The position numbers were made by a program, and so were the translations under genes. Of a DNA stretch of 64,000 nt, positions 5,406-63,068 are shown in pieces. Positions within the stretch are counted from its first letter, which is position 1. Each line of letters opens with the position of its first letter. The notes beneath the pieces were generated by a model. The model was not told the origin of the DNA and made no database searches. It saw nothing but the letters and a program-made list of their open reading frames with translations. Source of the DNA: Polytrichum commune (lineage: Eukaryota > Streptophyta > Polytrichopsida > Polytrichales > Polytrichaceae); the NCBI GenBank assembly GCA_950295325.1, contig OX485805.1, positions 10,540,501-10,604,500 on the forward strand, in the 5' to 3' direction.

Positions 5406-5425
5406 TTACGAACGCGCGTTCGTAA
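5406..5425. repeat. A palindrome in the 3' flank of gene A
   Basis: TTACGAACGCGCGTTCGTAA is a perfect 20-bp palindrome with core CG. It begins 15 bp past the stop codon of the ParB/methyltransferase-like gene A (stop at 5440-5442). A B-type palindrome has the same post-stop position in gene B. Confidence 0.9.
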
Positions 5426-5439
5426 AACATTTGGCATTC

Positions 5440-5744
5440 TCATAGATGAGTTACCTCTTTGATTAACGAACGCGCGTTCGTAATATCCATTGGGGAAGCA
5501 GCCTCTGGATCCATGACCTCCGCTGGACGCTCCTCCTGAGACGACTGGGTCTGTTGGATGAGCTCCACGTCGTCGTCCCCGCCCAGGTCGAGTCTCTCCA
5601 TGCGGACATCCTCCATGTGCGCGGACGGATGTCCTTCCTGGTCATGGCTCTCCACGACCATCCCACGCGTACCTGCCGAGTCATTGGAGCTCCCCTGCGT
5701 TTCCTCCACAATGACCATGTCAGTGTGTTGCGCAGTGTCATCGC
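5440..5744 (-). CDS. Gene A exon 3, distal part (C-terminal tail)
   Basis: An acidic, low-complexity C-terminal tail of about 98 codons (EETQGSSND..., a DLGGDDDVEL segment, ending EVTHL) is separated from the rest of exon 3 by the insertion at 5745-9129. The reading frame just inside the insertion target (G-D-D) matches the frame at 9138 exactly. Gene B's exon 3 ends similarly (EVTH). A palindrome at 5464-5483 lies within the coding sequence and is read as TNARS. No enzymatic function is visible. Confidence 0.6.
5464..5483. repeat. A palindrome inside the gene A coding tail
   Basis: TAACGAACGCGCGTTCGTAA has one outer mismatch and core CG. It lies in frame in the exon 3 tail. Confidence 0.85.
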
Positions 5745-6109
5745 CACGGGTAGATCACTTAGTGCATTTTAAAAACGACGTGCGGCATAATATAGAGAGG
5801 ATTAAAATCATTTGAAATAAAAATTATAAAGGAATTCCAAATAATGAAGGGGCCATTAAATGTAGACAATGAAATTATAAGTAAGTTAGATGCACATAAA
5901 ACATGGACCATTATTTTTTTGTAAAACTAATATAGGGGCTGAAGATAAGGATCCTAGAAGTTATGTTTAGTATGGTATGTAAATGGGTTGAGGACTCACG
6001 GGGATGGATGATAATTGGGATTTTCTTTAGTCCAAAAATGGATGAAAAATGAATGTGATGTCGCTGGGGTCGTCTTCCCCACGCCCGTTTGTTGATGGCT
6101 AGGGTTTCA

Positions 6110-6225
6110 ATTTGCTTCGCGTTTTCTTCCGTTGTGTTCGAGGAGGAGCTTTGTTTCGGAGGAGGCTTTGTTTTGGAGGAGGCTTTGTTTCGGAGGAAAC
6201 TTTGTTTCGGAGGAGGTGCGGCAGT
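6110..6225. repeat. GTTTCGGAGGAGGCTTT short tandem repeat
   Basis: About five imperfect 15-21-bp units (gaggag(g)ctttgtttcg(g)) lie inside the 3.4-kb element. They keep several frames open, but no product is supported. Confidence 0.6.
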
Positions 6226-6229
6226 GCTG

Positions 6230-9060: not shown

Positions 9061-9129
9061 ATAGCCCCCCAAAAAATAACCCCCAGCCGCACGTGGTGCA
9101 CAAAAATGCCTTAGAGTGATCTACCCGTG

Positions 9130-10251
9130 GTCATCGCCCCGCCTATCTAGAACCCTTGGGACGACGGTGAAAGAGGCCGTGTCGGTGTCTGTGGGCAGTC
9201 CTACCCTTGAAGGGGGAGGGGTGAGGACTGCCGGACCTGAAGATTCACGAACGTGCGTTCGTAAATCTTCGTCCTCCCTTAGCGCCGCCGTGATTGCATC
9301 GTGGGAGGTTGAGGCGGCCGCCGTCACTTCGGGGGGCAATGGACTTCCCACCGGCGTTGGGTGTGGCGCTGTTTGGTGGGAAGGCCCTCCTTGGTACATG
9401 ACTGGAGGTGGGGGTTGTGAGGGGTATCCTCCAGGGGGGAAGGGGTAAGGTTGCTGGACCGGCGCAGAGAGGCTCTGCATGTTTCTGAGCATCTCGAAGA
9501 TGGCGTCGGTTTTGGCCGCTGAATCCCTCAGCTGCTCTTGCAGCCTGGCCAGATGCTTGGCGCTTTCCTCCTGTGCTGCAGCCATCTCCTCCTTCATCTT
9601 CGCCTCCAGCTTGGCGTTGAGCTCAGCGACGGTGAGTGCCTCCTCCTTCACCCGCTTGTTCTTGTCGTAGTCCACGCCAAGCTCGGCCATGATGTCCATC
9701 TCCCCCTCGTCCTCGTCCGAGACCTCGATGACTGCTCCCGGCGGCAACTCCACGTATGGAGTTTTCTTCATCCTCCTCCTCGTGTTGCGGAAGAGGTCCA
9801 AAGATGGCCGCGAGCGTTGGTCGAGGATGTCCAGGGTTTCCATCTTCGGAACCACGGCGGGCCTTGGAGACTGTGACGTCGAGCATCCGCCTGGCGTTCC
9901 GAAAGGCTCTGCAAGAGATGTTCTCGCCGGGAGGACGTCCAGGGTTGTCCCCGCGGACGACCCGGTGTAACCACCCGGCGTCCCTTGAGGGTCGGGAAGA
10001 TCCGTCGTTGGCGGCAAGATCCGAAGTGGGGGTACGTCGAAGGACTGCAGAATGGCGTCCACGTTGGCGGAGGGGGTGGGCTCGTTGTCCTCAGAATCGT
10101 GGAATGGTATGCCCTCGTCGGCGGGCATACTGAAGTCCATCCTGGGGACAGAGATGTCCTTGAGGTCCATCGTCGACGCCTTCGCACGGTGGATCTTGAA
10201 GTCTTCTTCGTCGATAGCGTCAACGAATGTGTTGACTACGAGACCCATCAT
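9130..10251 (-). CDS. Gene A exon 3, proximal part: acidic, coiled-coil tail with SUMO-type motifs
   Basis: This exon starts at a canonical acceptor (ttctcacag then ATGATGGGTC at 10251) in phase 0. It encodes about 374 residues: a proline/serine-rich stretch, a basic RNTRRRMKK patch, a hydrophobic-acidic VIEVSDEDE segment (about residues 1047-1055), a psi-K-x-E site (VKEE), a strongly predicted coiled coil (ELNAKLEAKMKEEMAAAQEE region), then a Pro/Gly-rich tail. The order SIM-like motif, VK[E/P]E, LTV.E.N, helix is shared with gene B exon 3. No catalytic domain is visible, and an adaptor or oligomerisation role is inferred. The frame runs into the inserted element and stops at 9121. Its continuation is 5744-5440. 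Confidence 0.75.
9245..9264. repeat. A palindrome inside gene A exon 3
   Basis: The core is ACGAACGTGCGTTCGT (core TG). It is read in frame as part of the tail (THVRES on the coding strand). Confidence 0.85.
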
Positions 10252-10473
10252 CTGTGAGAAGAGAGCAATAAGGTCAGAAAATACGAACGCACGTTCGTAA
10301 ACATCAAAGCGTAGCGTGCAACGAGTTTCAAGCATTACATTACGAAGGGGTTATGTTTACGAACGAGCGTTCGTAAACATGAATGCGTCACGTGCAGAGA
10401 CTGTGAAACAATACATTGAGAAGTTGGTTAACTTTACGAACGAGCGTTCGTAAATGGAGTCTGGACAACTTAC
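10252..10473 (-). other. Gene A intron 2 (222 bp) carrying three A palindromes
   Basis: The donor is GTAAGT at 10473 and the acceptor is CAG ending at 10252, phase 0. The palindromes are at 10281-10300 (core CA), 10357-10376 (AG) and 10434-10453 (AG). Together they make up over a quarter of the intron. The same intron in gene B (118 bp) contains one B palindrome. Confidence 0.85.
10281..10453. repeat. Three A palindromes in gene A intron 2
   Basis: 10281-10300, 10357-10376 and 10434-10453. Spacing is 76 and 77 bp. Confidence 0.9.
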
Positions 10474-11799
10474 CATGGCCGCATACATGAATTTGGAGCC
10501 TCCACATACGTTGTATACCGTCTCTCCACTTATAACCAGACTCTGCAATACAAAGACGTAGAACTCCATCCTGAGTTCCATGGCGGGGAAGACGGTGTAG
10601 AGGGTCTCTTGCAACAGATCCTTGGGAGGGGGATGCGGGATGCTGTAGATTTTCTTGAACGTGTTGTTTGCCTGGATAGGCGGTCGCCCATCCCTTAGCT
10701 CATTGTACGTCAAGAAAATCAGGCTGACCGCTCCCACCTGCTTGTTGCCCCTGGCCTCGTTGATGGCCACAATCCCCTCCGTCTTCGCTGGCACGTACGT
10801 GCTGTGGAAGATGCTGTACTCGAATTTGATCTTCTGCTCGTACAGCTCTGTGACCACAGACAGCTTCTCTTGTTCGACTATCCACAGCCAAACGTGTGGC
10901 TCCCTCATGGCCGGTGATTTGAACTCCATGAACTTGGCCATGAAAGGGTTGTAGAAGGGAATGTCCTTCCCCCCCTGCCTTGACGCACCCAGGATCCCCC
11001 TGAAATCGATGAGGGCAAAAGGGCAACCCCGTCGATCCTCCCTCACCTCGGCCCTACTGATGGTGCCGTCCCACTTGGAAAATGTGACCCTCTCCACGCC
11101 GGAGGTGATCACGCAAAACCTTGCCACTCCTTCGAATGTGGCGTTCCTCTTCCTCTCCAAAAATTTTAAGTACAACATTACCTCATGGGGATCCGTGTCG
11201 GTTTTCTTAGTCTTTTTGTTCCCCTTCAATTTCAAAACCGAGGCGTGTTCCTTGACCAGACTGCGCATGGAGGCTCCGTTGATGTTGTAGTCGACCTTTA
11301 ACATTTGCCATTGCGGCCAGATGATGTCGCCGTCGACTTCAAAGATTCTGTACTCTGGTACGAGTACGCTCAACCCTCTCATGGCTGCAGTCTTCAGCTT
11401 CCGGTGGTCACACCACTCCTTGATAGAGTAGGTGCCGGGCTTGTGCTTTGGCCTCTTCAAAAAGATCTTGGGATAGGGAAGGGTTCTTCCCACGGTGTTC
11501 CCAAGAACATGAATCGCACACCTCTTCAGCTTTGACTCCGTCAATCCCTGGAGGTGTCTAAAGAACTCCCTCAGTAGTGGGGGCGCTTCACCGGTTTTTT
11601 CCGTGCTGTACTTCTCCTCCGTGTCGGGGTTGACCAAATCGCCCGAGCTGTGTGCATCAAAAAACTGGGTCCACAAGTCCCATGTGTCCTTGTTGCAGCA
11701 GATCAGTCTGAGCTCACCCTTCAGCTCAAGCACAGACTTTGTGGTGGTGGACTTCATATCGATGGAAGAGAACTTGTCTACCATCGCGTCGCAAAATGC
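10474..11799 (-). CDS. Gene A exon 2: methyltransferase-like domain of ParB/MTase-like protein
   Basis: This is 442 intact codons, phase 0 at both ends. The order of landmarks resembles N6/N4 (MT-A70/beta-class) DNA methyltransferases. An FALIDFRGI segment (about residues 692-700) sits where DPPW/DPPY is expected. HVWLWIVE (about 733-740) is like the 'LFLWV.n' strand. An IPHPPPKDLL segment resembles the H..KP motif. GETVYNVCGGSKFMYAAM (about 856-873) is like the 'GD.VlDpFgGSGTt..AA' SAM-binding loop. The catalytic DPPW/Y is not preserved, so the fold may be a non-catalytic binding module. ParB plus methyltransferase is a known pairing in phage and bacterial modification proteins. The assignment rests on motif order, not on a search. 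Gene B exon 2 is homologous throughout. Confidence 0.6.
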
Positions 11800-11915
11800 C
11801 TGCACAAAACAAGATGTCAGTGTTGCACATAATACGAACGCACGTTCGTAAATTGAGTCAGTAATTGATGTTTTCGTGAGTCCAACACTTTACGAACGTT
11901 CGTTCGTAAACTCAC
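11800..11915 (-). other. Gene A intron 1 (116 bp) carrying two A palindromes
   Basis: The donor GTGAG is at 11915-11911 and the acceptor TGCAG ends at 11800. Palindromes at 11890-11909 (core TT, starting within 6 nt of the donor) and 11832-11851 (core CA) fill a third of the intron. Intron 1 of gene B is at the homologous position, after a PKW/PQW codon run, and also has a palindrome right behind its donor. Confidence 0.85.
11832..11909. repeat. Two A palindromes in gene A intron 1
   Basis: 11832-11851 (core CA) and 11890-11909 (core TT), 58 bp apart. Confidence 0.9.
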
Positions 11916-13239: not shown

Positions 13240-13768
13240 TTACGAACGAGCGTTCGTAATTGACAAGCAAATCATATATACTAATCAATGAACGCTGGCT
13301 ATGGGTACCCGGAGGAGTTTTAATTATGTCTTCGCTGATTTCATTTACGAACGATCGTTCGTAAAGAATGTGGTTGCTAAGGTGTATTTGGCTCAAGTTT
13401 ACGAACGTGCGTTCGTATTGTTTGTAAACAAGTCCACGAGTTGTCCAGTGTTATCTAATTTCCACGAGGGTTGTTCGAATTTCCATGAGCATCTTCTAAA
13501 TAGGTGAATTAATACTTTAGTTCTTATTTACGAACAATTACCATTAAGGGTTTGGGATATTATTATAGTTTGTGATTACGAACGTTCGTTCGTATTTTTG
13601 TATGTTTCATTTGGATTTGAGGATTTGAGGATGTACAGGGTATAGACGAATATACGAACGTGCGTTCGTAAAAATGGAGGGTGAGGTGCGTATTTACGAA
13701 CGCACGTTCGTATATGTTTGTGGGGTAAGGCATGTTTTCACGCCACATTTACGAACGAACGTTCGTAA
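13240..13768. repeat. Seven A palindromes upstream of gene A
   Basis: Copies are at 13240-13259 (core AG), 13345-13364 (AT), 13399-13418 (TG), 13576-13595 (TT), 13652-13671 (TG), 13694-13713 (CA) and 13749-13768 (AA). A half-site TTTACGAAC lies at about 13527. The sequence between copies is unrelated and AT-rich, so the unit is the palindrome itself and not a longer repeat. Confidence 0.9.
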
Positions 13769-17231: not shown

Positions 17232-18539
17232 TTACGAACGCACGTTCGTAAACGTGAATTAGTAGCACATGCAGAAGAGGTACATAGAGATGATGTGAAT
17301 TGTTTACGAACGTGCGTTCGTAAGTTGTTCACAACCGTAGTCGACATTGAGTTACTTATAGACAGAACTAGGCACGAAAATTGTGTCGATTACATACGAA
17401 CGTACGTTCGTATATCTGCCTTCAAGACCCAGACGCGCATGAGTTCCCGTGTAACCGTTTTCTCCAACGGAACATCTGATAATGGGATATTTACGAACGT
17501 GCGTTCGTAAATATCACCTGGGATTATTTTTCAAGAATTCATAAACATTCCTTAATTTATACACTTCTGTGCATTGGCCACGTTAACAATATGGAAGTTA
17601 AATACGAACGCTCGTTCGTATTTCTCACTACCATTTATGTCCACAGATAATTATGTTTTCCAATTTTACGAACGCACGTTCGTAAATACCACCTGTCCAC
17701 CGTCCATGCATCCACCAACAGAACTGTTAACGCAAGCATGTGTGGAGGACTACACCATGTTTAGGATAGATACGAACGCTCGTTCGTATTTGGCACTACC
17801 ATTTATGTCCACGGAGAATTATGTTTTTGAATTTTACGAACGCACGTTCGTAAATACCACCTGTCCACCGTCCACGCATCCACCAACAGACCTGTCGACG
17901 CAAGCATGTGTAGAGGACTACACCGTGTTAATGATAGATACGAACGCTCGTTCGTATCTGTTCAATCACGATTTTAGTGATAGATGTCGATTGTCATTTT
18001 CCACTGGATATTGAATTTCATGTATCCTTGTAACGTGGCTATAGATATCTCTATTCGGACGTGTCCAATCATTTTTGCCTAACACTGTCACGGCTGTAAC
18101 ATACATATGATCGGTCGTATGCATCCGCCCCTATGTTTCGGCTGGAACTTACGAACGATCGTTCGTGTACATAAGCCCTCCATTTCGGCTGTAGCTAACG
18201 AACGATCGTTCGTAAACTCTCGCCCATCAAATACACGCCTCTCAAATATGATGCTTACTGCATGTGAATAAAGTGGCAAGTATATTTTTGGTGCTCTTAT
18301 AATATGTCCCATTTAGATTTTATTGTATATTGGGTTGATGTTTTCGTCCTCGCGTTCGTGAATATATGTGCTTGTGTTGTCCCTTGGTGGTGGAAAATCC
18401 TTCCAATGTTTTATTTGCGACTCCACCCAAAGCCCTTCATGGGTAATATATATCGGAATGGGGTTCCGTTGTGCAGGGACGTCTGAGTCCCGTGTAGGAT
18501 TTGTATGTCATGGGGATGTTGTCGAACGCACGTTCGTCT
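17232..18539. repeat. Twelve A palindromes upstream of transposase A
   Basis: Copies are at 17232 (core CA), 17304 (TG), 17394 (TA), 17491 (TG), 17602 (CT), 17666 (CA), 17770 (CT), 17834 (CA), 17938 (CT), 18149 (AT), 18196 (AT) and a decayed one at 18520 (CA). Each is 20 bp. Those at 17602-17957 sit in a 168-bp tandem duplication (17602/17770/17938 and 17666/17834). They lie 140-1,450 bp before the likely start codon of transposase A at 18681. Confidence 0.9.
17602..17957. repeat. 168-bp tandem duplication carrying palindrome pairs
   Basis: The palindromes at 17602, 17770 and 17938 are exactly 168 bp apart, and those at 17666 and 17834 likewise. Intervening text (ccacctgtccaccgtcca, gcaagcatgtgt) is duplicated with few changes. 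Each unit carries one CT-core and one CA-core site, 64 bp apart. Confidence 0.85.
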
Positions 18540-18680
18540 TCATATGTGATGTCCCTCAACGGTGTGTCGAGTGTTGGTTGTGATTTTCCAGCCATATATG
18601 TAGGCATATCTCGTATCCACTTTTGTATGCATTGCGGTTGTTGGTGTGTTGGTCATTTATTGGTGGTTTGTTTAGGTTGG

Positions 18681-21600: not shown

Positions 21601-21820
21601 CAAAAAGAATTTTAAGTGGACAGTGGACTCAGCGTACACACCGGTTTGGATAAACACGGATACTATACTTTGTGCTTGGAAGCCGCGCAAAGGGTCCAAA
21701 ACAGAAACAATGACCATCCCCCAAAAACATATAGATTTTGCCAAAGACAACTTGGCACGTATTGCAGCGGCAGAAAATGACGCCGAGAATGGATATGAAG
21801 TGGAAGATGGAGATGTGTAA
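18681..21820 (+). CDS. Transposase A: RNase H-like DDE-type candidate (D..LDN..GHTHDDID family)
   Basis: This is a two-exon gene: 18681-20157 and 20301-21820, about 998 codons, with a 143-bp GT-AG intron in phase 1. Exon 1 has an acidic N-terminus, a CCERKCCQFFPREK cysteine cluster (possible zinc binding), and IHDKMDHAKTACP (D465). Exon 2 has HVQLDNCAKDNK (D587), MVGHTHDDIDVSFGRWS (D626-D629) and a C-terminal module with WKPRKG and IPQKHIDFAKDNLARI. This order (iDg.D..K, lDN...eNKNry, GHTHeDiD..F) belongs to a widespread eukaryotic transposon-associated family that I recall as DUF7869-like, and the label is unverified. The three aspartates are the likely catalytic set. An in-frame TGA at 21506-21508 interrupts the last 104 codons. 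Gene B's pseudogene is colinear, with its intron at the same place. The start is the first ATG that aligns with the paralogue's N-terminus. Confidence 0.75.
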
Positions 21821-21829: not shown

Positions 21830-23100
21830 ATTAGGTGGGAGTTAATGGCGAAAAACATGGGCGATTAGTAGATTTGGTTTTTAATAGACTTAGTGGACTT
21901 GTCACACTCCATTGTGGTATACGTTTGGGATGTGCCATCCAAATTCATAAGAGCCTTACTTATGGGATGCGCACCCCAAACTCTATAATGACATAAACCA
22001 TTTGTTTTTTTTGGAGTGGATTGTTATTTTCCACATGGAGCTCATTTTTCATTTTAATTGAAATTCTCTATTTTTAGTAATAAGAATATCCTTTACGTAC
22101 GAATTTTTAAATCGTCATGTTCTTGATATTTCCAATATTCCGTATGCCCACAATATTGGCATCCCAAACTATGGGCATATTTTATTTTGAGACTTTCAAA
22201 AGTCTCCAATTAACGAATATAGTGTTACATGCTTTGGTGTGTTGGAATCACCTGTCAACTGCTAACAATAAGGATCTAAAATATTTCAGTCTAATGATAG
22301 CATATATCCTCAGTACTTAACGTGTTGGTTTCAGCACCATCTACTCTACATGTTGCATGTGCAATGAGTATTTGTTTGGAGATGACCTCGATCAGGGCTT
22401 TCGGCTTTGAACAAACATTGGGAACCCATCTTTGGGATCCCATTCCATTTTCCTCGCGTAATCTTCTTTGGAGTCGTCAACTCCCACCCTCTCCCACCTA
22501 GCAAACAGAGTGCAATGTGATATACTGAAATTACACAAGCTTTTTGAAAGGAATCGAACAAGTGTGTTTGAAAACAGAACATGATTCTTTTTCTCTTGGA
22601 AGACATATGTAAGGCATGCATTGACCAAATTCGACACCGAATCTGGTTCTCTCAGTCATCTTCATGGAATTCATCATAGATAAAGCCTAGATATTCCCAG
22701 GCTTCAATGTGAAGCTCAATATTGTGTATGTAAGTAGATGTGTTTTCACTCAGTGCATGCATAGCGAGATGCACTAGATGGCAGACTCAAACCTTACTAC
22801 AACTCAAAAGAATGTGGTAACAAAATTAGGTCTTTCAAGATCATCCATGAACACATGATAACATTGTGAGGAAATAGCTTGACACACTAGAGCATGATTT
22901 ACTAGAGAATATCAAGTACGGTAAATAATTAACTTGGGATTTGGAGACAATTGCCAAGATTATGAGGTGTATTTTGGATATGCCAAAACTATTATGATAG
23001 GGAATCAAAGGATGACCAAGAAGCGCAACTTCTCCCCTCCCTCCTAAATTACCAACTAAGCAAACATATTTGGAGGCTTCAAATTATCAACCACTTGAAC
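21830..23100. other. 3' flank of transposase A, gene-free
   Basis: AT-rich DNA. A short inverted repeat (GAGACT...AGTCTC) at 22189-22206 has a counterpart 3' of the B paralogue at 47133-47150. No other feature is seen. Confidence 0.4.
22189..22206 (+). other. Inverted repeat downstream of transposase A
   Basis: GAGACTTTCAAAAGTCTC has a 6-8-bp stem and lies 369 nt past the stop codon. The B paralogue has GAGACTAGAGAAAGTCTC (sense strand) 494 nt past its stop. Both are followed by (C)AATT. It may mark the element's terminal region or a transcript end. Confidence 0.4.
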
Positions 23101-47643: not shown

Positions 47644-50600
47644 TCATTCAACGTGGGTTGGTTCTTCTGCAATCCGAGCAAGGTTGTCTTTTGCAAAAGT
47701 TATGTACTTTTGAGGGATGGACACTAATCCACTGTGGTTTTTCCGTGGTTTCCATGCTATGAATATGGAATCTGTATCTACCCAAGATGGACCGTGCTCA
47801 GAATCCACCTTCCACCGAAAGTTAGGGTTTGTATCCCAGCCTGTATAATGCCAAATCACATCTTCATTCCTTGTTGTCGGTCGGTAGTACTCCACTTGTA
47901 TTTGTCGAAAATGAGGACTGCAAGTTGTAAAATTTGGTTTGGACAAAGCTCTTGCCACCCACACTGGCTTCGCATATGTCTCGTCTCTAGGACGCAAAAT
48001 GAGCATATAACCTTCATGACAATCCACTGCAATGTGGAAAGATGATGGGGGACGTTGACTAGCAGGCCCAACGTAATGGTTGTCCACATCAAACTCCTCT
48101 CGAATCTCTCCATTTTCCAGAAGGCAAGCCTCTATAGCTTGTACATGGACACGAGTTTGTGGCCAAAATCATTGCCTCAAAGTATGAGGGCTATCTTGGT
48201 GTAGGTCTGCCAAGGCGGCACGAACACGTGTCCAATAATGAATCCAACTCCCATATCGATGCCAACATGATCCGCCAACATCCGCTATCTTCAAACTCTC
48301 TCAATATTGTATGAAGCCTGATATACCTTTCAAAATATCCTCCAAATTCTTCATGGGTATTGGCTTGCAAGGCCTAGGCTCTCCATCCGGTAACATGGTG
48401 TTCCCATCCGCATCCACGTGCCACACAAGTAGACCCTCCGGCGGGCTCCAGTCTTGTGTCGTACACAACAACTTGTATTGCATGGCCGGAACACCATCGT
48501 CACGCATGTAGAACCGGAATTGTTGTGCCTTCGTATGCCCGATCAATCGGTGAGCTCCACTTCGAATATAAGGTTCTATAAATGCCTTGAAGTCTGGCAC
48601 CTCCTCGATCATATGGGGGATGACGGGAACGTTCTCCAAATCCATGTACGACTTCATCAATACTGGGATTGTAGGAAAATCCTCCTCCCGCAACTTCATG
48701 CTCCACCGCCCAAAAGATGCATCAATATCATCGTGCGTGTGGCCTACCAATAGGAAGGACACAAAAACCTCTTTGAAAATGCCTTTCGCAACCAACAACG
48801 ACCAATATGCAAATATATATCTACTTTTATTGTCCTTGGCACAATTGTCCAATTGGACACGCAAAGTAGGGGGCAACTTCTTCGCAATCACAGGTTCACT
48901 GGGTGGCTCGGGCAACGAATGCAAACATACATCTTTTCCATCCAACACCGCTTCATATAAAGGTGTTGAACCCGTGTTTTCAAATAACAATCTTGAAGAA
49001 TAGGTTGGCGGTTTCTCTAAATCATGTAAAAACCTTGCAAATGACCCTATCGTGTGTTTGAATCCGCTGGATACAAATCAAGAGCATAATGAGCATACTT
49101 GACATCACCGTGTCCATGTGCAATCATTCTTGCAATGCCAACCGAACGTGATTAGTATCTATGTATATCTAAATCATTTTGAATGAATCCATGTTGCCAA
49201 GTACATCACGGAATAGAAGACCAGAACATTTAGGGTATGTCATGACATTGTTTCGATGTTCACCTGTAACCGATACATGCAACTTAAAAAACCCATCCGT
49301 GGCCTTGATACGATTTGCAAAACATGGGGAGGCTGTTTTGGCATGGTTCATTTTGTCATGGATGACTGTAAAAACCTCCAAGGGCCTGGAGATGGACAAA
49401 GCCCTATTTGTGTAGTAATCATTACGGTGTGCCTCTTGCATGTTTACGTGCTTGAAATAGTTCAATTGATGCGCCACATATGACTCGGTACCCATCGTGT
49501 GTGCATCCCGAAGTCGCTTCAACTTCTCACAATTAAAGCACCTGGCAAATTTGTCCCCTCGTCTTTTTGTAATGTATTCACTAAAATTTGCTTTCTTGAT
49601 TGCACTCAATTTTGACAATGAAATTGGCTCCAACCCAATCTTCTCGCCAACTGCATTCACGTCCAACAATATGTCTTTCCATTTTGTGCCTGTGGGAAGA
49701 ACTTTCTCCACAACCTTTTCACCGGTTGTGAGTGTGCGTGTTCTGTGCGGCATTGCATCGGCAAGGGGGACAATGATGGTTGCTAGAGTGGCCGTTGCTT
49801 GCCTTGTTGCTTCCCTAGGCTTCTTTAAACCCACATTCCCATGGTGACGGGATCGGCGGCCTTCCTTGGCATAAGCGGCTTGTCTATAAAAGTCCGCTTT
49901 CGACACACCGTGAATGGTGTACCATGCCTTACAACACACGTCTATGCTTTCAAGCGTGATGACATTACGACCCGTCCCGTTCACATGTATTGCCCTATGG
50001 ACATCAAGTTTTTTTGTGGATCTTAGACGGAAATCTCAAGCCACATTTCCTCACGGATGGCCTTCAATTTGTCCCTTGGAAACAATTGGCAACAACGATG
50101 CACACAACAATCCTTTGTGGCAACTTCTCTAATGGACTCCTCACCGAGCAACCTTTGACGTTTACAATCAGTTGCAGACGGGGCAGGACGTGCCAATGTA
50201 TCGTACTTTCTTTAATCCTTACGTGGCCGCATGTTCAATTGCAGCTCTTTTTCGATTTGCATGTGTCGTTGCTCATGTTCACGCAAGCTAACTCCATCAA
50301 TCATGACATTCCTCAATGGCCACCTACGGAGGGAGAACCTATGAGTGGGATCCACCTCGGAATGAACGAGCGGCTCCAATATGACAACCCCAATGTCCTC
50401 GGTGCCAAGCGGGTGTTCATCAATGCAATCTTGTGGATGGGTGTTACGACAAATACCCTCTGCCACACCAACTCCACTGTCATTAAGAAGTACCACCTCC
50501 AAATTCACCCACGAAGCTCTTCAAAGCCCTACACACTCTACAATCGGACACTGTGGAACGGACGGCGAGGGTAAATCCAAATGATCTTCATCTGTAATGT

Positions 50601-50706
50601 CATCCATAGTAGCCTCGCCGACAATGTCAAACTCGTCCTCAGAAGCAGATGGCCAAGTGGCCATGTCTTCAGCTAACGAATATCCTATTCCACTGTACCC
50701 ATACAT
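47644..50706 (-). pseudogene. Transposase B: decayed paralogue of transposase A
   Basis: It is colinear with transposase A along its whole length. It has the same intron (donor after 49264, acceptor before 49128, 135 bp) and the same motifs: KDCCVHRCCQLFPRDK, IHDKMNHAKTASP, RVQLDNCAKDNK and VGHTHDDIDASFGRWS. The frame is broken by in-frame stops near 50521, 50212 and 48301, another before FWPQTR, and by small indels near 50030 and 49050. The second residue after HDKM is N, not D. The predicted start at 50706 (MYGYSGIGYS) lies 217 bp from the first B palindrome. It is not functional as it stands, but it keeps clear homology for judging conserved residues. Confidence 0.8.
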
Positions 50707-50922: not shown

Positions 50923-51172
50923 TTTGGGTCGAGCGACCCAATCCTGTTGTCAGGATGCGGCATAGACATAGGGTCATGGACCCACAAGACCTCCAAAATG
51001 GGTTCGGGTCGACCGACCCAAACCTCGTGACAGGATGGGCCCCGGTCGTCTAACCCAGCCCACACTGTGTGGATGGGTTTGGGTCGAGCGACCCAAACCT
51101 CTTGTTAGGATGGGCCTTGCTTGTCAAACCCAGCCCACACTTTGTGGATGGATTTGGGTCGAGCGACCCAAA
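50923..51172. repeat. B palindromes upstream of transposase B (four copies, 75-bp tandem units)
   Basis: Sites are at 50923-50942 (core AG, one outer mismatch), 51003 (AC), 51078 (AG) and 51153 (AG). The last three are spaced exactly 75 bp apart within a repeat containing 'cttgtcta(a)cccagcccacac'. Confidence 0.9.
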
Positions 51173-51308
51173 CATCTTGTTAGGATGGACCATTTATGTG
51201 AGGCCAAAACCACCCCCCTTAGGCGTCCTAGTCCGGGTGATGGTGTTGAGAATCACATGTATTGTTCGTATCAAAAGAATGATCTCTTTGCATCCCAAGG
51301 CATACATG

Positions 51309-51545
51309 TCATTTTGAATCACTTTGTTTATTAGTAATGACCTCTTGGCTTGTGACCGAATTGGCCTTCTCAAGAGTCCAACCGGCAGCCTTGGCAACAC
51401 AAGCTCTCAAGGATATTCTCCTTGCGCCTTTGATTATCCTCTCCTTCACCTTGCCAATGCTAGAGTCCTCCTCCCTCTCCATTGTTATATAAGTGATTGA
51501 TTTTTTTACCAACAAGGATGTAAGTGTTGAAAAACACTCCCTCAA
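51309..51545 (-). CDS. Micro-ORF with ISLRACVAKAAGWTLE core, LTR copy 4
   Basis: This is a 78-codon frame whose middle reads ARRISLRACVAKAAGWTLEK, matching copies 1 and 3. The remainder is unrelated or diverged. The function is unknown. Confidence 0.45.
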   Translation of the reverse strand: MRECFSTLTSLLVKKSITYITMEREEDSSIGKVKERIIKGARRISLRACVAKAAGWTLEKANSVTSQEVITNKQSDSK

Positions 51546-51699
51546 TGGTTAACCTCAAATATAGTTGCTTGTAAAAACCCCACACCCTCCTGGCTATCTA
51601 ACCACACAACTCACACATTGACTAATTTCATTAAGTCCTTTCCCTAAGTCCTAATTCTAAGTCACTAGGATGATGGCACTAAAGTTTGGCCAAGTAAGC

Positions 51700-52090
51700 T
51701 TGTCTGCTGGCCCACCGTAAGTTCGTCTGCTGCCCAACCGGTAAGCTCTTCTGCTGGCCCAACCGTAAGCTTATATACTGCCCAGCCGGTAAGCTAGTCT
51801 GCTGCCCAGCCGGTAAGCTTGTCTGCTACCCCACCGTAAGTTCGTCTGCTGGCCCAACCGTAAGCTTATATGCTGGCCCAACCGTAAGCTTATATGCTGC
51901 CCAACCGGTTAAGCTTGTCTGCTGCCCAACCGTAAGCTTATATGCTGCCCAACCGTAAGCTCGTCTGTCTGGCCCAACCGTAAGCTCGTTTGTCTGGCCC
52001 AACCGTAAGCTAGTCTGCTGGCCCAACCATAAGCTCGTCTACTGGCCCAACCATAAACTTATATGCTGCCCAGCCGTAAGCTTAGTCTGA
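51700..52090. repeat. Minisatellite within LTR copy 4
   Basis: About a dozen units of 'gt(c/t)tgctg(g)cccaaccg(g)taagct(t/c)(a/g)t', about 25-33 bp each. Confidence 0.8.
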
Positions 52091-52924
52091 TGGGCAGAGC
52101 CCAATATATTTGCACTAAGGTTTGGCCAAGCTCCTTAATGGCCCTAAATTAACACACAAATTAGGAGGCTACCTAAGGGATTTCAAACTACAACTAATTT
52201 GGTGACTCTACCCTCTAATCAAATACTTTTCTACTTGGTCTCTATGATTTGGAATAAGTAACTAAACTAACTCCCTAACATCACTAAGGCTAACTAATCC
52301 ACACATGTGGCCTAGTTCAAGCTATAAGAGCTTACTCCCATGGGGTGAATTGAGAGAGAGAGCTTAACTAACTAACTTCACTAGAAAACTAACAATCCAC
52401 ACACGTGGCTCAAGCTCTTAGGAGCTTGCTCCCTTGAGAGCGCTTGATGGAGAGAGAGGAAAATGAGAGAGAAAACACCTTAAGTAGCAAAGAGGGAGAG
52501 AGGGGGAGAGGGAGAGAAAAGTGAGGATAGGGTGAGAGGATTAGCACCTCCAATCACAATCCCTTAACCTTCACCTTCAAAGTAGGGACTAATCCCCTTC
52601 CACCAAGCTTCCTTCTTCCTAAACTAACAAGATGGATCCAAAAGTGGGCATTTAACCCGCGGAGCTCACCTTGCCTCACCTTACCCCTTACTCACATAAT
52701 CAAGGCATTCTCCTATTGAACTCAACCCTTGAAATAACCACCCAACACATTCTAATGCCTAAACTTAAATCCACACCACACTTCACTCTTTTTATGTTTT
52801 GTGAATAATCATAACACCTCAAAGTCAAACAAAAATTGGTTTCGAAGAGTTAATCACCACATGTGGGCACCATTTTGGGCTCACAGCCTTGCTTGTCTAA
52901 CCCAATCCAAACTGTCTGGATGGG

Positions 52925-53394
52925 TTTGGGTCGAGCGACCCAAACCTCTTGTTAGGATGGGCCTTGCTTGTCTAACCCAGCCCACACTGTGTGGATGGGT
53001 TTGGGTCGATCGACCCAAATCTCTTGTTAGGATGGGCCTTGCTTGTCTAACCCAGCCCACACAGTGTGGATGGGTTTGGATCGATCGACCCAAACCTCTT
53101 GTTAGGATAGGCCTTGCTTGTCTAACCCAGCCCACACAGTGTGGATGGGTTTGGGTCGATCGACCCAAACCTCTTGTTAGGATAGGCCTTGCTTGTCTAA
53201 CCCAAGGCACAATGTGTGGATGGGTTTCGGTCGAGCGACCCAAACCTCTTATTAGGATGGGCCTTGCTTGTCTAACCCAGCCCACACTGTGTGGATGGGT
53301 TTCGGTCGAGCGACCCAAACCTCTTGTTAGGATGGGCCTTGCTTGTCTAACCCAGCCCACACTGTCTAGATGGGTTTAGGTCGACCGACCCAAA
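52925..53394. repeat. 75-bp tandem array, seven units, each with one B palindrome
   Basis: Palindromes start at 52925, 53000, 53075, 53150, 53225, 53300 and 53375, exactly 75 bp apart. Cores are AG, AT, AT, AT, AG, AG, AC. Linker units differ at a few bases. This array and 51003-51172 were one tract before the LTR insertion. Confidence 0.95.
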
Positions 53395-54806: not shown

Positions 54807-54901
54807 TTTGGGTCAACCGACCCAAACCTCTTGTTAGGATGGGCCTTGCTTGTCCAACCCAGCCCACACTGTGTGTATGGGTTTGGGTCGTTTGACCCAA
54901 A
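54807..54901. repeat. Last two B palindromes of the 75-bp array
   Basis: Sites are at 54807-54826 (core AC, one arm change) and 54882-54901 (arm changes, core TT), again 75 bp apart. Confidence 0.88.
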
Positions 54902-56064: not shown

Positions 56065-57180
56065 ATTTTATGTGCCTATGACATGCACTATTGGGAGGAA
56101 AATGGTATTTGATAAGTGATTTTGAAAACCCATCCTCCACAACTTCACATCAATGCATTGCATACAGAAAAAAGTATGTAATTCTAGGATATTACTCTAC
56201 TTGGACTCAAATATTATGGTTTATTTCAAACAATATATTGACAATAGATGTGGCAACATTATGAAACTTTATATAGTATAAGCCACCAAATACAATTACA
56301 GTTTAGTATGTAGTTATGACGACTTTCACATGAGGACTTATACATTGAAAAGAAGAATTCATGTCATGACAAATTTGAATAATTTGGCCAACTTTCAATT
56401 TGCGACAATAAAAATGAGAAAAACTTGAAAAGAACATATGGCGTTTGTAATGTGTGCACACAACGTGCTCCATTGTCAAGCATGCATGTGTGGCAATGAA
56501 TAACGTATGTGGAAGGCATTAATGGGAATTCCATCATGAATGGGACTTTATAGTTTAGGGTTTCAAGGATGTTTGAAACTATCATGAAGTCCACTTGAAA
56601 TCTAGTATAAAGATCATATCTACTATAACCAAGTTATTATACTCTTCATGACAATATACATTTGTATTGAAAACTACAAGCACCAAGGCTTGTAGTTCAT
56701 GTTACCTATGTGCCATTCATTTGTGGCTTGCGGTGTTTAGGGTTTAGGGTTTAGGGTTTAGGTTGGAGGGATCATCAAACATCAAACTTAATGCTTAAAT
56801 GGCTTCATATGATTTTGAACTCCATGGGGTTCCAGTAGATAAATTTGTAATCTTTGTGCATCTCCCATGTACTTCAAATGTCAACTTCTATGTACTGATA
56901 TAAATGATTAGGGCAATGCTACTTGGGTGGCTATCCATTGTAGGCTAGAGCCTTGTCTTCTACCAACTTGGGTTATGAAAATTACAATAGAGAGCCCTAA
57001 ACCCTTGACCATGTTAATGGTTAGCATATTTAAACACTATATTCGTTAAATTGAGACTTTTTGGGCATTTTGAGATAATCACATAAATAAGAACAAGGAT
57101 AAATGGAACACATATTGGAGAAAGTTGTAAGATGCGAACACTTTGAAGCGGGTGTTTAGAACAAGAACCCCATTAATAAC
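56065..57180. other. Gene-free AT-rich DNA
   Basis: The only feature is an interstitial (TTTAGGG)4 tract at 56738-56766. Confidence 0.45.
56738..56766. repeat. Interstitial telomere-type repeat (TTTAGGG)n
   Basis: Four units of TTTAGGG, the plant telomere type. Internal location. Confidence 0.75.
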
Positions 57181-57440: not shown

Positions 57441-57570
57441 TATATTATTGCAAAAAAAACATACAAATTATGGCATGTAAAATGCATAGCATGCTAACAC
57501 CACACATCCATTGGATAGTGCGACCCAAAATGTTCTTGCCTATGGCTCACAACCCTACGCCTACTATGGC

Positions 57571-58390: not shown

Positions 58391-58509
58391 CTGATGGGAA
58401 AATTAAAACAAACAAAACCCAAGGGGAGGGGGGCAGGGGGGGAGCATGAGAAAATCGATATACAATTGAGGCATACTATATCACACACAATGGCACACCA
58501 TGTAGTATC

Positions 58510-59364
58510 TCAAATGAGTTTATTATATTTCGCGTGAGCGTACAACTCTCTGTACATATAGTCCTTCGGATCCATGTATCTTTCGCCTATCGGATTACAA
58601 CTAAGGAACCGGGGCACGGGTAGTCCGCTCCCCACGAGCGTTTGAATGTACTTAAGTAGGTCTAACAAAAAGCGGTCTCGGACCTTCTCGACCGTCCACG
58701 TGGGGCAAACTATGAAGTTCGAGGTCGGGTTCAAAATGTTCTTGGAAGCGCTGTCGTCCACCATCAACGTGTTGTCACGGGTGGGGCGAACGTTGTAGGG
58801 ACAGCCGACCATGGTCGGACGCTGATCCCATACGACTGGCTTCAAGACCTTAAGAAATTGGTTTACGGCGGGGTTGTTGGGCTTCTTCACAACCCTGCCC
58901 TCGGGGGTGTACAATGTTTTACAAGAATCCTGTCCTAGGACCAAGCACGGGGGTTGGAGTCCCTTGAAGATGAACTCCACGACGGCCTGGGTGTTCTCGG
59001 ACTTCATGGAGCTCCACACGATCACCCACCATTTGGATAGGGTGACCTGCAGGAAGCGCCGAAGCCACGGGCGGAGGTACACTAGCTTGCTTTTGATGTA
59101 CGCGGGGGGACCATCGTAGTTCCCGTCCTCGGGCTTGCAGAAAGGCACCGTGGGGACCTTGGGACAGTGCACGCACTGGACGAGGACCCCGTTGAGGTCT
59201 AGCACCAGGAACCGTGTCTTGGGCGGCGGAGACGGGGAGGGCAAAATCGGGGGGACCACCGCGCTGTCCTCCACGCTCCTCGGGGAGGACCGGTGGGGAG
59301 CCACGACGCTATGCTCCGATCCCTGCGGCGACGAGCGAGAGAAGGCGGCGAGGACTATGTTATG
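58510..59364 (-). CDS. FCP1/SCP-like HAD domain protein (DxN variant)
   Basis: An open frame ends at 58510 and is open back to about 59364 without an in-frame ATG, so a 5' exon is probably missing. A Pro/Ser-rich N-terminus is followed by RFLVLDLNGVLVQ (HAD motif I), a YLRPWLRRFL segment, WWVIVWSSM (motif II region with SS), KPVVWDQR and DNTLMVDDSASK (motif IV DD). These follow the order of FCP1/NLI-interacting-factor domains, which dephosphorylate the RNA polymerase II CTD. The second aspartate of DxDxT/V is N, as in a plant subfamily with LDLNGLL, so CTD phosphatase activity is doubtful. The C-terminus (MDPKDYMYRELYAHAK) is unassigned. It lies 3' of gene B on the same strand, about 0.4 kb past its final palindrome. 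It may be host DNA or element cargo. Confidence 0.7.
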   Translation of the reverse strand, partial: HNIVLAAFSRSSPQGSEHSVVAPHRSSPRSVEDSAVVPPILPSPSPPPKTRFLVLDLNGVLVQCVHCPKVPTVPFCKPEDGNYDGPPAYIKSKLVYLRPWLRRFLQVTLSKWWVIVWSSMKSENTQAVVEFIFKGLQPPCLVLGQDSCKTLYTPEGRVVKKPNNPAVNQFLKVLKPVVWDQRPTMVGCPYNVRPTRDNTLMVDDSASKNILNPTSNFIVCPTWTVEKVRDRFLLDLLKYIQTLVGSGLPVPRFLSCNPIGERYMDPKDYMYRELYAHAKYNKLI

Positions 59365-59742: not shown

Positions 59743-59762
59743 TTTGGGTCGGTCGACCCAAA
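59743..59762. repeat. B palindrome in the 3' flank of gene B
   Basis: TTTGGGTCGGTCGACCCAAA is perfect, core GT. It begins 11 bp past the stop codon of gene B (59773-59775). It matches the post-stop A palindrome of gene A. Confidence 0.92.
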
Positions 59763-59772
59763 CTGGGAAGGC

Positions 59773-61269
59773 TCAGTGTGTTACCTCGCCCTGGTCATGT
59801 CTCGACGATGTGGATGCCTCCACCGTCCCCGATGCCCCACCTCTCTCGCCACCGCCTTCTCCGCCTACGTCAGGGACCTTGTCCTGCAAAGGTTGAGCAT
59901 CAGGCCCTTGTCCTAAACCAATCTCCGCATATGCATCATGCATGGGTTCATCGATTTGGTTAGGATTAGAGGTATCACCAGGCCCTTGGAGGCCTTCAAC
60001 ATCTAACATGGTTGTGTCTCTTTGAGACACAAGTTCGTCAAGGGAGGACTGAGCTGCTCCGGGGTTTGGGTCGGGCGACCCAAACTGTCCTGCATCGGGG
60101 GAGGCGCCTTGGGGCACTACAGTCGAGGGTGGGTTTGGGTCGGTCGACCCAAACATCCTGGGATCGTCCGGCTGGTGAGGGGGCGCCATCACTATGGGGG
60201 GTCGTAGTGGTGGAGGGCCCAACGGGGAGGAGGCTCCAGATACGCGCCAGATGTTGGGATCGTCCACTTGTTGGACTGGCGCGTACGGAACATGGGGCGG
60301 CCGCATCATGTGCTGGAAGCTGAATGACCCTTGCGACACTGGGTGCTGAGGGATGCTCTGCGCTAGGAAACCGGGGGGCAAGTGCGGAAACGAGCTGGAT
60401 GGAGCCACCACCAATCCTTGCGCCCACATCCCTTGTATGACTTGCGATATCAAGTCGGCGCTGGATGGAGGTTGGGCCATCGCCCTTAGTCTTTCTTGTT
60501 CCAAGAGGAGAGCCCTCAGCTCTGCGACCTCGTTCCGCACGGAGGGTTCTTCCGCGGTAGCCCTCTGCAGGCGGACGCGCTGCTCCTCGTCTCTACGCAT
60601 CTTCTCGTTGGCTTCCTCCACAGTGAGGACTTCGGGTTTCACCCTAACCATGCCTGCGAACGCTGTCGGGGAGGGGGGATCCGATCTGAGCCGTTTGGCG
60701 AGCTCAATGTCGTCGTCGTCCTCGCTGCTAATGGCAATGGTCTCCTCCAATGCGTAATCGCCATAGAGCTTCTTTCCCTTTAACTTCCTCCTCTCCCGGA
60801 ACGTGGCAGTCGCGTCCCTGGAGTACATGTCCCTCGCATCGTCCACCGTAAGGACGGGCATCATCTTACTCTGCGGGGTTGCCACACGCATAGCCTTCTT
60901 CCTCTGAGGGGCTTCAGATTCTTGCGTGAATCCCGTTGCCCCTTCCTCCACATCCCCCTCCTTTTCCTCCTCTCCGTGTTCTTCTTCTTCCTCCTCCTCT
61001 TCCACCTCTCCACCTCCTGTACGGGACGGATTGCCCGGATGCAACCCGACTAGAGGTTCGGGTAATTGGGTTGTTGCCCTCATCGCAATTTCTTCCGGGT
61101 TGATCCGCCTCGCCCTATCAAGAGGGTTCTCACCCCCCTCAACAACCTCGTCCACGTAGCTTCCCGGGATCCAATCGAGGATATCCATCTTCTTTGCCAG
61201 CGATTTCTGCGTCCTGTAAAATTGCAGATCGCTATCCTCTATGTACGAGTAGATGTTCAACCCCAACAT
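59773..61269 (-). CDS. Gene B exon 3: acidic tail with SUMO-type motifs
   Basis: This is 498 codons plus stop, phase 0 from acceptor TGTAG at 61270. It begins MLGLNIYSYIEDSD, similar to gene A's MMGLVVNTFVDAID. It has a Glu-rich run (residues about 88-110), a basic patch, ETIAISSEDDDD (SIM-like, residues 176-186), VKPE (K211), LTVEEAN and a charged helix, then a long Pro/Gly/Gln-rich tail. Two B palindromes are read through in frame in that tail (FGSTDPNP and FGSPDPNP). It is the same layout as gene A exon 3 despite low identity. No catalytic residues are visible. Confidence 0.75.
   Translation of the reverse strand: MLGLNIYSYIEDSDLQFYRTQKSLAKKMDILDWIPGSYVDEVVEGGENPLDRARRINPEEIAMRATTQLPEPLVGLHPGNPSRTGGGEVEEEEEEEEHGEEEKEGDVEEGATGFTQESEAPQRKKAMRVATPQSKMMPVLTVDDARDMYSRDATATFRERRKLKGKKLYGDYALEETIAISSEDDDDIELAKRLRSDPPSPTAFAGMVRVKPEVLTVEEANEKMRRDEEQRVRLQRATAEEPSVRNEVAELRALLLEQERLRAMAQPPSSADLISQVIQGMWAQGLVVAPSSSFPHLPPGFLAQSIPQHPVSQGSFSFQHMMRPPHVPYAPVQQVDDPNIWRVSGASSPLGPPPLRPPIVMAPPHQPDDPRMFGSTDPNPPSTVVPQGASPDAGQFGSPDPNPGAAQSSLDELVSQRDTTMLDVEGLQGPGDTSNPNQIDEPMHDAYAEIGLGQGPDAQPLQDKVPDVGGEGGGERGGASGTVEASTSSRHDQGEVTH
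60065..60152. repeat. Two B palindromes inside the gene B coding tail
   Basis: Sites are at 60065-60084 (core GG) and 60133-60152 (core GT), 68 bp apart and read in the same frame, each giving F-G-S-x-D-P-N-P. Confidence 0.92.
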
Positions 61270-61387
61270 CTACACAATCCAAGTTATATAGAAATTAGAA
61301 TTTGCAAGACAAAAAACAAGACCAAAAACAATATCTAGTTTGGGTCGACCGACCCAAACTGCGCAAGAGCTAAAGAATGTAACTTAC
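61270..61387 (-). other. Gene B intron 2 (118 bp) with one B palindrome
   Basis: The donor is GTAAGT at 61387 and the acceptor is TGTAG at 61270, phase 0. The palindrome is at 61339-61358 (core AC). It is positionally the same as gene A intron 2 (after GGSK..YAAM). Confidence 0.88.
61339..61358. repeat. B palindrome in gene B intron 2
   Basis: TTTGGGTCGACCGACCCAAA, perfect, core AC. Confidence 0.92.
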
Positions 61388-62719
61388 CATGGCAGCATAG
61401 AGGGGTTTCGAGCCCCCGAACACGTTGAAGATACAGTCCCCTCTCCTAGTCAGCGTCCTCAGCATCCGCATGTAGAATTCCATCCGCAGCTCATCTGCAG
61501 GATAGTTTGCGTATTTGGCCTCGTCGTATAGGCATTTGCTGGAACCTAACCCATCTGGAACTTGGAAGAGCTTGTCCATCCGGGATATAGGGTGGTTCGG
61601 CACCTTCAACAACTCCGCTTTGTACACGAAGTACAAACACAGGACGTTGACGACCTTGGTCTTCTTGTCCTTCAACGACGTGTAGGCCCCCTCCGCCGGT
61701 GCGGCGATGTAGTGAGACTTGGAGACTGCATACTCCGGCTGCAATTTCCGGACAAGGTCGTACACCTGCTCCGCCCTCCTATCCTCGACTATCCATAGCC
61801 AGACATCAACCTCCCTGAACTTAGGACTCGCATAATCGACGAACTTAGATAGGAAGGGGTCGTAAAACAGTGTGCTCATCGTACCCTCAAATGAGCTTCC
61901 AGGAATGTTCCTGAAATCTATCATTCCGAATGGGAAACGCCCCCCTGCTTTCGTCCTTATCGCCATTCTGGCGTCTTGACCTGGCCAGCCCTGAATTTTC
62001 AAAGGCTCGAAGGTGACAAGGTTGAAGTAAGCGTCCCCTTCAAACTGGACAATCTTCTTCTCCTTGATGAAGTTCGAGAACGCACGCGCTGTGTGATCCG
62101 GAAGCGCCCGGTTCTTCCCACCCTTCACCATCTTGGCCCGCAAGAAGTCATCCCCCGCTTCCCTTATTAGAGCCGCCATGGAGGCACTGGTGAACTTATA
62201 TTCAGCTTTGAATGCTCTCCAGTTAGCCTCATGAACCTCGCCGTCCACGACAATATTCCTCTCCGGCACCAATTTATGCAGCTCCTGCACTATAGTTGTC
62301 TTCTTTTTCCTATTCTCAGTCCATTCCTTCATGGTGTAGCATGAAGGGACGAAGGATTTGGGCTTTAAGAAGACAATCTTCGGGTGCACCCAGCACCTTT
62401 TCGCCGTGGGCGTGAAATGCAGGATGTGCGCCGCCGCCTTCTCCATCTCCGTCTCGGAAAGGCCTTGAAGAGTTCTAAAGAACTCTCTCACGAGAGGCTT
62501 CATTTGTTTGAAGCGCGTGGTTTGGTTGAAGAAAATTCATGTGTCCGGGTCGATGAGCTCACCCGTCTCATGCTTCTCAAATACACTCTTCCACTTCATC
62601 CAAACGGAGTCGGATGCTGTTATTAAATAAATCTCCCCTCTAAGCTCGTTGTATTTCTTCTGTTTGTGACTAGCATTATCAATGGAGGAGAATTTATTTA
62701 TCATTTGGTATTTGAAGTC
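61388..62719 (-). CDS. Gene B exon 2: methyltransferase-like domain, one in-frame TGA
   Basis: This is 444 codons homologous to gene A exon 2. It has FGMIDFRNIPGSS at the motif IV position, VDVWLWIVEDRR, ELRMEFYMRML and GDCIFNVFGGSKPLYAAM, which resembles the GD.V.DpFgGSG..AA SAM loop of N6/N4 methyltransferases more closely than gene A does. An in-frame TGA at 62537-62539 follows ELIDPDT, where gene A reads NPDTEEKYS. The frame continues in register after it. So the copy has a single nonsense codon, unless the codon is bypassed by splicing. The DPPY motif is absent here as in A. Confidence 0.65.
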
Positions 62720-63068
62720 CTGCATGTGATCAAAACAATCATTTGAATGCATGTTAGATATGAACATGTGATTTCCAAAACATATCATGACCAGTGTCTG
62801 CACCAAGAGTTTGGGTCGATCGACCCAAACTAAAAAAACATGACTGCAACAAGAGTTTGGGTCGATCGACCCAAACTAAAAAAACATGACTGCAACAAGA
62901 GTTTGGGTCGATCGACCCAAACTAAAAAAACATGACTGCAACAAGACTTTGGGTCGAGCGATCCAAACTAAAAAACATGACTGCAACAAGACTTTGGATC
63001 GAGCGACCCAAAGTACACAAATAAAGCTGCAAAAGGAGTTTGGGTCGATCGACCCAAACAATACTCAC
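62720..63068 (-). other. Gene B intron 1 (349 bp) with a six-palindrome array
   Basis: The donor is GTGAGT at 63068 and the acceptor is TGCAG at 62720, phase 0. B palindromes are at 62810, 62856, 62902, 62948, 62993 and 63039 (cores AT, AT, AT, AG, AG, AT). They are spaced 45-46 bp apart with a conserved 'taaaaaa(a)catgactgcaacaaga' linker. The last lies 9 nt inside the donor. Confidence 0.92.
62810..63058. repeat. 46-bp tandem array of six B palindromes in gene B intron 1
   Basis: The starts are at 62810, 62856, 62902, 62948, 62993 and 63039. Two sites have one arm mismatch (62948 right arm, 62993 left arm). Confidence 0.92.

Follow-up and report, generated by a model that had tools for sequence, protein, structure and literature searches.

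Lineage-specific palindromes in DNA transposons of the moss Polytrichum commune pair with clades of a ParB-like/methyltransferase-like gene

Two sets of 20-bp palindromes, of one format and different spelling, lie in separate parts of a 64,000-nucleotide stretch of the moss Polytrichum commune (contig OX485805.1, positions 10,540,501 to 10,604,500, listed as C3:10540501-10604500; hereafter the window), each set being accompanied by homologous genes for a ParB-like/methyltransferase-like protein and a transposase. The question raised by this locus is why elements with homologous genes carry differently spelled palindromes, and which protein reads them. The original prediction, made from the window alone, held that these are two lineages of one element system, each encoding a protein that binds its own palindrome, site and protein having diverged together. 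The two lineages are upheld, and this genome (407.8 Mb, 64 contigs) has at least three, marked by palindromes A, D, and B. The A and D sets are best read as long DNA transposons of one family, in autonomous and non-autonomous copies. Palindrome spelling is lineage specific and has diverged together with the ParB-like/methyltransferase-like protein, and the inverted ends of the A and D elements are nearly constant.

Palindrome A (TTACGAACG-NN-CGTTCGTAA) occurs 26 times with up to 2 mismatches at window positions 5406–18215, and no match was found in 100 shuffles. Palindrome D (TTTGGGTCG-NN-CGACCCAAA) occurs 23 times with at most 1 mismatch at positions 50923–63058, and one further match with 3 mismatches lies at 57510. 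All 23 D copies proposed for 50.9–63.1 kb were recovered, as were 26 of the 27 A copies proposed for 5.4–18.5 kb, the 27th probably being a degenerate site at 18520. The window scan revealed neither A within the D territory nor D within the A territory, as had been claimed. Both palindromes share the format TTNNGNNCG-NN-CGNNCNNAA, that is to say, 2 nearly invariant 9-bp arms around a variable 2-bp core, which agrees with the design first described. Fully self-complementary matches to this format number 25 in the window (12 A and 13 D) and were absent from 50 first-order Markov simulations. The sites prefer non-coding DNA: (i) 1 of 24 A sites overlaps coding sequence, against 55% of the span being coding (binomial p 2e-7; span 9.1 to 21.8 kb, the 2 sites at 5.4 kb excluded); and (ii) 2 of 23 D sites do so, against 46% of the span (binomial p 1e-4).

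Further spellings were found in relatives of the protein. Protein searches in public genome or metagenome records (15, 91, and 75 rows) gave 165 distinct proteins, mostly partial, some of which may come from the host itself. Their sequences read through exons into introns, so that intron palindromes show up as peptides (YERxFV, LRTxVRK, and TNxRS for A; WVxRPK, LGRxTQ, and FGSxDP for D). The decoding was letter-free, every compatible 8-NN-8 palindrome being listed and counted for each read-through tail; it yields the inner eight arm letters, and the outermost T was carried over from A and D. Among the first 96 proteins, with clades assigned by eye on the tree, the A core ranked top in clade I (20/37), the D core in clade II (9/34), and a new palindrome, B (TACGGACG-NN-CGTCCGTA), in clade III (4/25); no palindrome was common to two proteins of one clade in 3 shuffled-tail trials. 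When all 165 proteins were decoded, a tail suited to decoding was available in 110 and a compatible palindrome in 81, and 70 of these 81 are explained by seven types, which all fit TTNNGNNCG-NN-CGNNCNNAA: A TTACGAACG, B TTACGGACG, C TTACGGCCG, D TTTGGGTCG, E TTTGGGCCG, F TTTCGGGCG, and G TTTCGGTCG. The remaining 11 fit one-off palindromes only. P0014 apparently carries a one-letter variant of D and P0019 one of A, and the palindrome of P0140 points to an eighth type, TTTAGGCCG. Two window sites (53225 and 53300) combine a G-type left arm with a D-type right arm.

The palindrome type follows the protein tree, as had been anticipated. Labels were taken from 59 proteins and the two window copies, each with a single unambiguous type; 10 proteins ambiguous between A and B (identical peptide) and P0054 were excluded. 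The exon-2 tree (83 tips, 34 labelled) requires 7 type changes, against a minimum of 6 and never fewer than 13 in 2,000 label shuffles; the exon-1 tree (62 tips, 27 labelled) also requires 7, against a minimum of 6 and never fewer than 12 in 2,000 shuffles. Since the label shuffles ignore relatedness, this result speaks for lineage specificity, not for selection. The fit is good and not perfect, since in the exon-1 tree G turns up inside the F group and also outside it. The end of exon 1 is covered by 42 proteins. In 24 of them a site of one of the named types begins no more than 10 residues from the last exon tryptophan, all seven types being represented; in 5 the site lies further in, and 13, including P0002, which has no intron there, have none (counts made by hand from the listing). 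Because the intron 1 site sits at the same spot in different types, its position has been kept while its spelling was exchanged. Were the palindromes repeats of a selfish or structural kind, expanding on their own and only hitch-hiking, their frequent location within tandem repeats (units of 46, 75, and 168 bp) would be accounted for; we regard this as extremely improbable, given that homologous intron positions are reused across lineages with different spelling, that sites avoid exons, and that the arms are kept while the core varies.

Across the genome, exact copies number 3,737 for A, 9,731 for D, 1,310 for B, and 27 for C, E and F have none, and searches with the reversed patterns of all six returned none. 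Chance or a simple-repeat artefact is ruled out by these controls together with the shuffles and simulations above. B was searched because the decoding had proposed it beforehand; the original prediction had suggested looking for further palindromes of this format. The 27 C copies mostly stand alone, a few forming pairs or a triplet, and C is therefore no marker of a large lineage in this genome; since E and F have no exact copy here, some of the relatives do not stem from the host.

From approximately the first 100 places listed per type, A and D places on C1 were taken with their surroundings, as 22 stretches of 10 kb. Pieces of the ParB-like/methyltransferase-like gene occur in 10 stretches and not in the other 12; clade I pieces occur with A sites only and clade II pieces with D sites only, except in L022, which holds parts of one A and one D element. 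Because the stretches were picked by site type, this comparison asks which clade occurs, not whether the gene occurs. Three B places led to three clade III genes with 67 to 79% identity to P0002. Exact sites were then counted at 12 gene copies of at least 250 aligned residues (2 from the window and 10 from elsewhere in the genome; shorter pieces, for example in L018 and L022, were left out), the counted region running from 1.5 kb upstream of the gene to 0.4 kb downstream of it. All 101 sites fall into the pairings clade I with A (39), clade II with D (40), and clade III with B (22). The expectation that each palindrome cluster pairs with one paralogue was borne out at all 12 copies.

What kind of protein is paired with the sites? 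According to gene models made from sequence only, the gene of the A element lies on the minus strand and comprises 3 exons and 1,250 codons including the stop, with a matching exon structure in the D copy (Table 1). Exon 2 was assigned to the amino-methyltransferase fold (beta class / MT-A70). The catalytic motif [DNS]PP[YFW] occurs in none of the 165 proteins; 65 exon-2 sequences, one of them from the window, could be aligned over the region, and D-F-R stands in its place, each position being kept in at least 63 of the 65. If the protein were an active DNA methyltransferase, marking the palindromes in a self/non-self modification system, this would agree with the fold, with a conserved G-G-S/T-K stretch where motif I is expected (position inferred), and with sites that are CpG-rich palindromes. 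The replaced motif argues against it, as does a 20-bp specificity, which is unusual for such methyltransferases, and we consider such a system quite unlikely.

The ParB-like assignment concerns a DGQHS box, present in 50 proteins. ParB CTPases have a G-x-R-R box, from which DGQHS differs; GxRR of any kind was found in 3 of the 165 proteins, and neither the window exons nor 19 aligned members gave a Pfam ParB match. The whole-protein AlphaFold model of P0002 was poor (predicted local distance difference test (pLDDT) 50.3), and its Foldseek rows, with a weak methyltransferase among others, were not used as evidence; the ParB-like assignment is thus one of sequence. The DGQHS segment and the many palindromes recall a partition system, in which a ParB-like protein would load on parS-like palindromes and spread or cluster element copies, as bacterial ParB, in the accessible text of the reports, binds short palindromic parS and then spreads (PMC12207404, PMC7053999). 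Such a system is very unlikely here on the box and Pfam results, and partition has no obvious use for a nuclear transposon. Protein scans of viral and prokaryote collections (viral_contigs, genome_contigs) confirmed no relative. Four viral contigs (L001-L004) contain one A palindrome each, perhaps by chance, and none contained D.

The sites belong to elements with approximately 25-bp inverted ends and 4-bp target duplications; in autonomous copies, a DUF7869 transposase gene and the ParB-like/methyltransferase-like gene face away from each other. Three elements have both ends: a non-autonomous A element of 9,491 bp (C1:639070-648560, duplication CATA/CATA, no open reading frame (ORF) above 200 aa) and two D elements of 18,084 bp (AAGT/AAGT) and 16,952 bp (ATAA/ATAA), in both of which the two genes face away from each other. 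The duplications are perfect in all three. These elements contain 37, 42, and 37 sites, 116 in total (one mismatch allowed; one site may match two types), and no match occurs in 10.5, 1.9, and 3.0 kb of flank. The palindromes are spread genome-wide, and at these three elements they lie inside, so that the original prediction is not refuted on this count. A comparison of copies showed that the inverted ends mostly start with AACACTATATTCG(T/G)TA and are nearly identical in A and D elements (shuffled end sequences gave 0.05 matches per query on the forward strand).

These elements bear on whether the transposase, and not the methyltransferase-like protein, reads the palindromes. Here the transposase would bind them internally, comparable to the subterminal repeats of CACTA or hAT, and the methyltransferase-like gene would be a passenger of shared lineage. 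Site type will correlate with any gene of a vertically inherited element, A and D transposases differ as well, and site clusters also lie upstream of the transposase. We nevertheless regard a transposase reader as unlikely: (i) in the three elements, 0.8 to 5.3 kb separate the outermost sites from the inverted ends, so that the sites are not subterminal; (ii) the inverted ends are near-identical in A and D and the internal sites differ; and (iii) sites occupy a fixed place in introns of the other gene.

How might the methyltransferase-like protein, as the reader, act? Probably a dimer because its sites are palindromes, it would bind the palindrome of its own lineage through its methyltransferase-fold and/or ParB-like part and would not methylate it. 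Bound at many sites, it would keep its own element, and likewise related non-autonomous copies bearing sites, accessible and transcribed; this would constitute a sequence-specific anti-silencing or activation system for its own lineage, and altered specificity would separate lineages from one another. From the sequence comparisons we infer that this protein reads the palindromes, a step we grade above anti-silencing. Control of its own elements, probably de-repression as exerted by VANC in VANDAL elements with unrelated parts, is the best reading by analogy. CpG depletion served as a proxy for methylation, preservation being expected near sites kept unmethylated. CpG is preserved near A sites (0.97 and 0.87 within 150 bp versus 0.46 and 0.42 beyond 600 bp).

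Several results weigh against this mechanism. At D sites the CpG pattern is reversed (0.21 and 0.35 within 150 bp versus 0.67 and 0.75 beyond 600 bp), and a simple universal CpG protection is not supported. The transposases of A and D also differ (45 to 69% identity over most of their length by tblastn), and a third factor is possible. No exact site of a foreign type was found at the 12 genes, in line with the view that clades do not share a palindrome; each of the three clade III copies, however, has an A-like site with one mismatch approximately 100 bp upstream, among B sites (L035:1090, L037:2988, and L038:4179), and two more sites at clade III genes are equally close to A and B. The intron of P0054 has both D and G palindromes, and this protein is possibly an intermediate in a specificity change. 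Foldseek by itself produced no match with E below 0.001. A scan for discriminating residues found many columns that split deep clades and none convincing for single site positions; residues 190 to 196 of exon 2 differ between the A, B/C, D, and E sets and are only a lead for specificity. Because A and D sites give opposite CpG answers, we hold the whole chain, from binding of a lineage's own palindrome to accessible and transcribed elements, to be somewhat probable. About an even chance is given to a broader reading, namely that a catalytically degenerate DNA methyltransferase with a ParB-like domain was turned into a palindrome reader, that site and reader repeatedly shifted together by single-letter steps (A, B, C; D, E, G, F) within the one fixed format, dozens of sites per element being respelled while some positions were kept, and that orthogonal DNA-address systems controlling transposon lineages resulted.

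Table 1. Positions of palindrome clusters, genes, and element ends in the window.
Feature	Position	Strand	Remarks
2 A-type palindromes	5406..5483		Near far (gene 3') side of A element
A element exon 3, Pro-rich, probable coiled coil	9121..10251	-	Gene model; one A site within (9245)
A element intron 2, GT-AG, 222 bp	10252..10473	-	3 A sites (10281, 10357, 10434)
A element exon 2, methyltransferase-fold domain	10474..11799	-	No catalytic motif, DFR kept instead
A element intron 1, GT-AG, 116 bp	11800..11915	-	2 A sites, one from intron position 7
A element exon 1, ParB-like DGQHS segment	11916..13208	-	Gene model
7 A sites	13240..13768		Immediately upstream of ParB/methyltransferase-like gene
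11 A sites, partly within 168-bp tandem repeat	17232..18215		Upstream of transposase gene
A element transposase gene (DUF7869), one probable intron	18501..21820	+	Pfam PF25273 E 3.8e-37; tblastn to D copy; in-frame stop ~21508
Right terminal inverted repeat, A element	22202..22226		2 mismatches to 25-mer
D-type remnant DUF7869 transposase gene	47644..50694	-	Pfam E 2.2e-38; frame broken at several places
11 D sites, mostly within 75-bp tandem repeats	50923..53394		Upstream of remnant transposase
2 D sites	54807..54901		One change at a CpG in each
Left terminal inverted repeat, second D element	57033..57057		Perfect 25-mer
NLI-interacting-factor-like (CTD-type) phosphatase ORF in D element	58510..59304	-	PF03031 E 2.3e-13
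D site	59743..59762		Directly past ParB/methyltransferase-like gene
D element exon 3	59773..61269	-	2 D sites in coding (60065, 60134)
D element intron 2	61270..61387	-	1 D site (61339)
D element exon 2, methyltransferase-like	61388..62719	-	One in-frame stop
D element intron 1	62720..63068	-	6 D sites in 46-bp tandem repeat, first from intron position 11
D element exon 1, ParB-like	63069..64000	-	Truncated by window end

Each set had been described as accompanied by both genes. Both families were found with both sets, and the DUF7869 match of the A transposase covers its C-terminal part; the right-hand set consists of at least two elements, its transposase lying outside the element of the gene. 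The right half of the window as a single element is ruled out, since the remnant (transposase at 47.6–50.7 kb, sites at 50.9–54.9 kb) lies outside the element starting at 57033, which contains the D methyltransferase-like gene. The right flank (L036) has D sites at 64.4–69.4 kb and then a plus-strand transposase at 69.6–72.4 kb, in the canonical facing-away position. A transposase-side inverted end between the reader gene and this transposase (L036:3691, 67.7 kb) suggests nested or rearranged D elements. For the A element of the window, a left inverted end was looked for and not found; its homology to two other A-type copies (L016 and L022) ends at approximately 5394.

The stretch with the phosphatase ORF is homologous across four D copies (window, L026, L028, and L029). 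E_D1 and E_D2 also have 281-aa ORFs, and D elements seem to carry a phosphatase-like gene of the C-terminal domain (CTD) type past the reader gene, possibly as a means of influencing host transcription. On the transposase side, close to the inverted end, A and D copies have a hairpin (TTGAGACTTTC...AGTCTC) in common (window 22187-22213 and 47131-47157). A long inverted repeat (1786-2743 and 4424-5367; arms of 491, 287, and 99 bp, 91 to 95% complementary) adjoins the A element on the left, and a repeat common to both window halves (15070-15420 and 55293-55613, ~71% identity) is possibly a small non-autonomous element. Plant-type telomere-like repeats (15588-15630 and 56735-56762) fit a plant host, and Rfam gave no match within the window.

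Known systems share parts of this design. TnpA of CACTA/Spm is likewise an element protein that binds short repeated motifs and is linked to methylation; its motifs are subterminal and not palindromes of the present kind. The Sola superfamily, reported from Physcomitrella, has 4-bp target duplications, variable inverted ends, and some elements above 15 kb (PMC10741241), and Sola2 elements can capture an accessory gene (PMC3627910). The 4-bp duplications of all three elements here resemble Sola, and the transposase is known as PF25273 DUF7869 only; palindrome arrays and a ParB/methyltransferase-like accessory gene are not mentioned in the accessible parts of these Sola reports (PMC10741241, PMC3627910). 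Fungal DNA transposons carry a TET/JBP dioxygenase gene that may counter DNA methylation; it encodes a catalytic enzyme, and lineage-specific site arrays are not mentioned in the available text (PMC12730594).

A description of this element was not found in the one open-access library searched, which lacks most subscription journals. The closest functional analogue is VANDAL/VANC of Arabidopsis (PMC5735166, as far as its available text goes), and the statement that no described plant element of this design is known is corrected in so far as this analogue exists. As the available text has it, VANC proteins bind to their own VANDAL elements, at motifs that lie in introns and elsewhere in non-coding DNA (PMC5735166); these motifs occur as tandem repeats and differ between VANC21 and VANC6 (PMC5735166, PMC10398659). 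Both systems, as far as those accounts go, have an element-encoded accessory protein and lineage-specific short motifs in non-coding DNA, often in tandem, and here, too, lineage-specific motifs in the elements' own non-coding DNA and tandem amplification were found. By the same accounts, VANC has DUF1985/DUF287, for which neither the window exons nor the 19 aligned members gave a Pfam match, whereas the moss protein has a ParB-like segment and a methyltransferase fold; VANDAL motifs are 8 to 9 bp long in one orientation, whereas the moss sites are 20-bp palindromes of one format; and anti-silencing was shown for VANC, whereas here it is proposed from sequence. VANDAL elements are Mutator-like, and by Pfam match (DUF7869) the transposase family differs here. 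To our knowledge, VANC is the foremost example on record in which a transposon protein has changed along with the motifs it targets. Another system, unrelated to it and comprising at least seven site types, would point to a general strategy. With a long palindrome in which few letters change and 165 reader sequences, the co-change of a protein and its dispersed sites becomes directly testable, and related readers with different 20-bp specificities may be on offer as a set.

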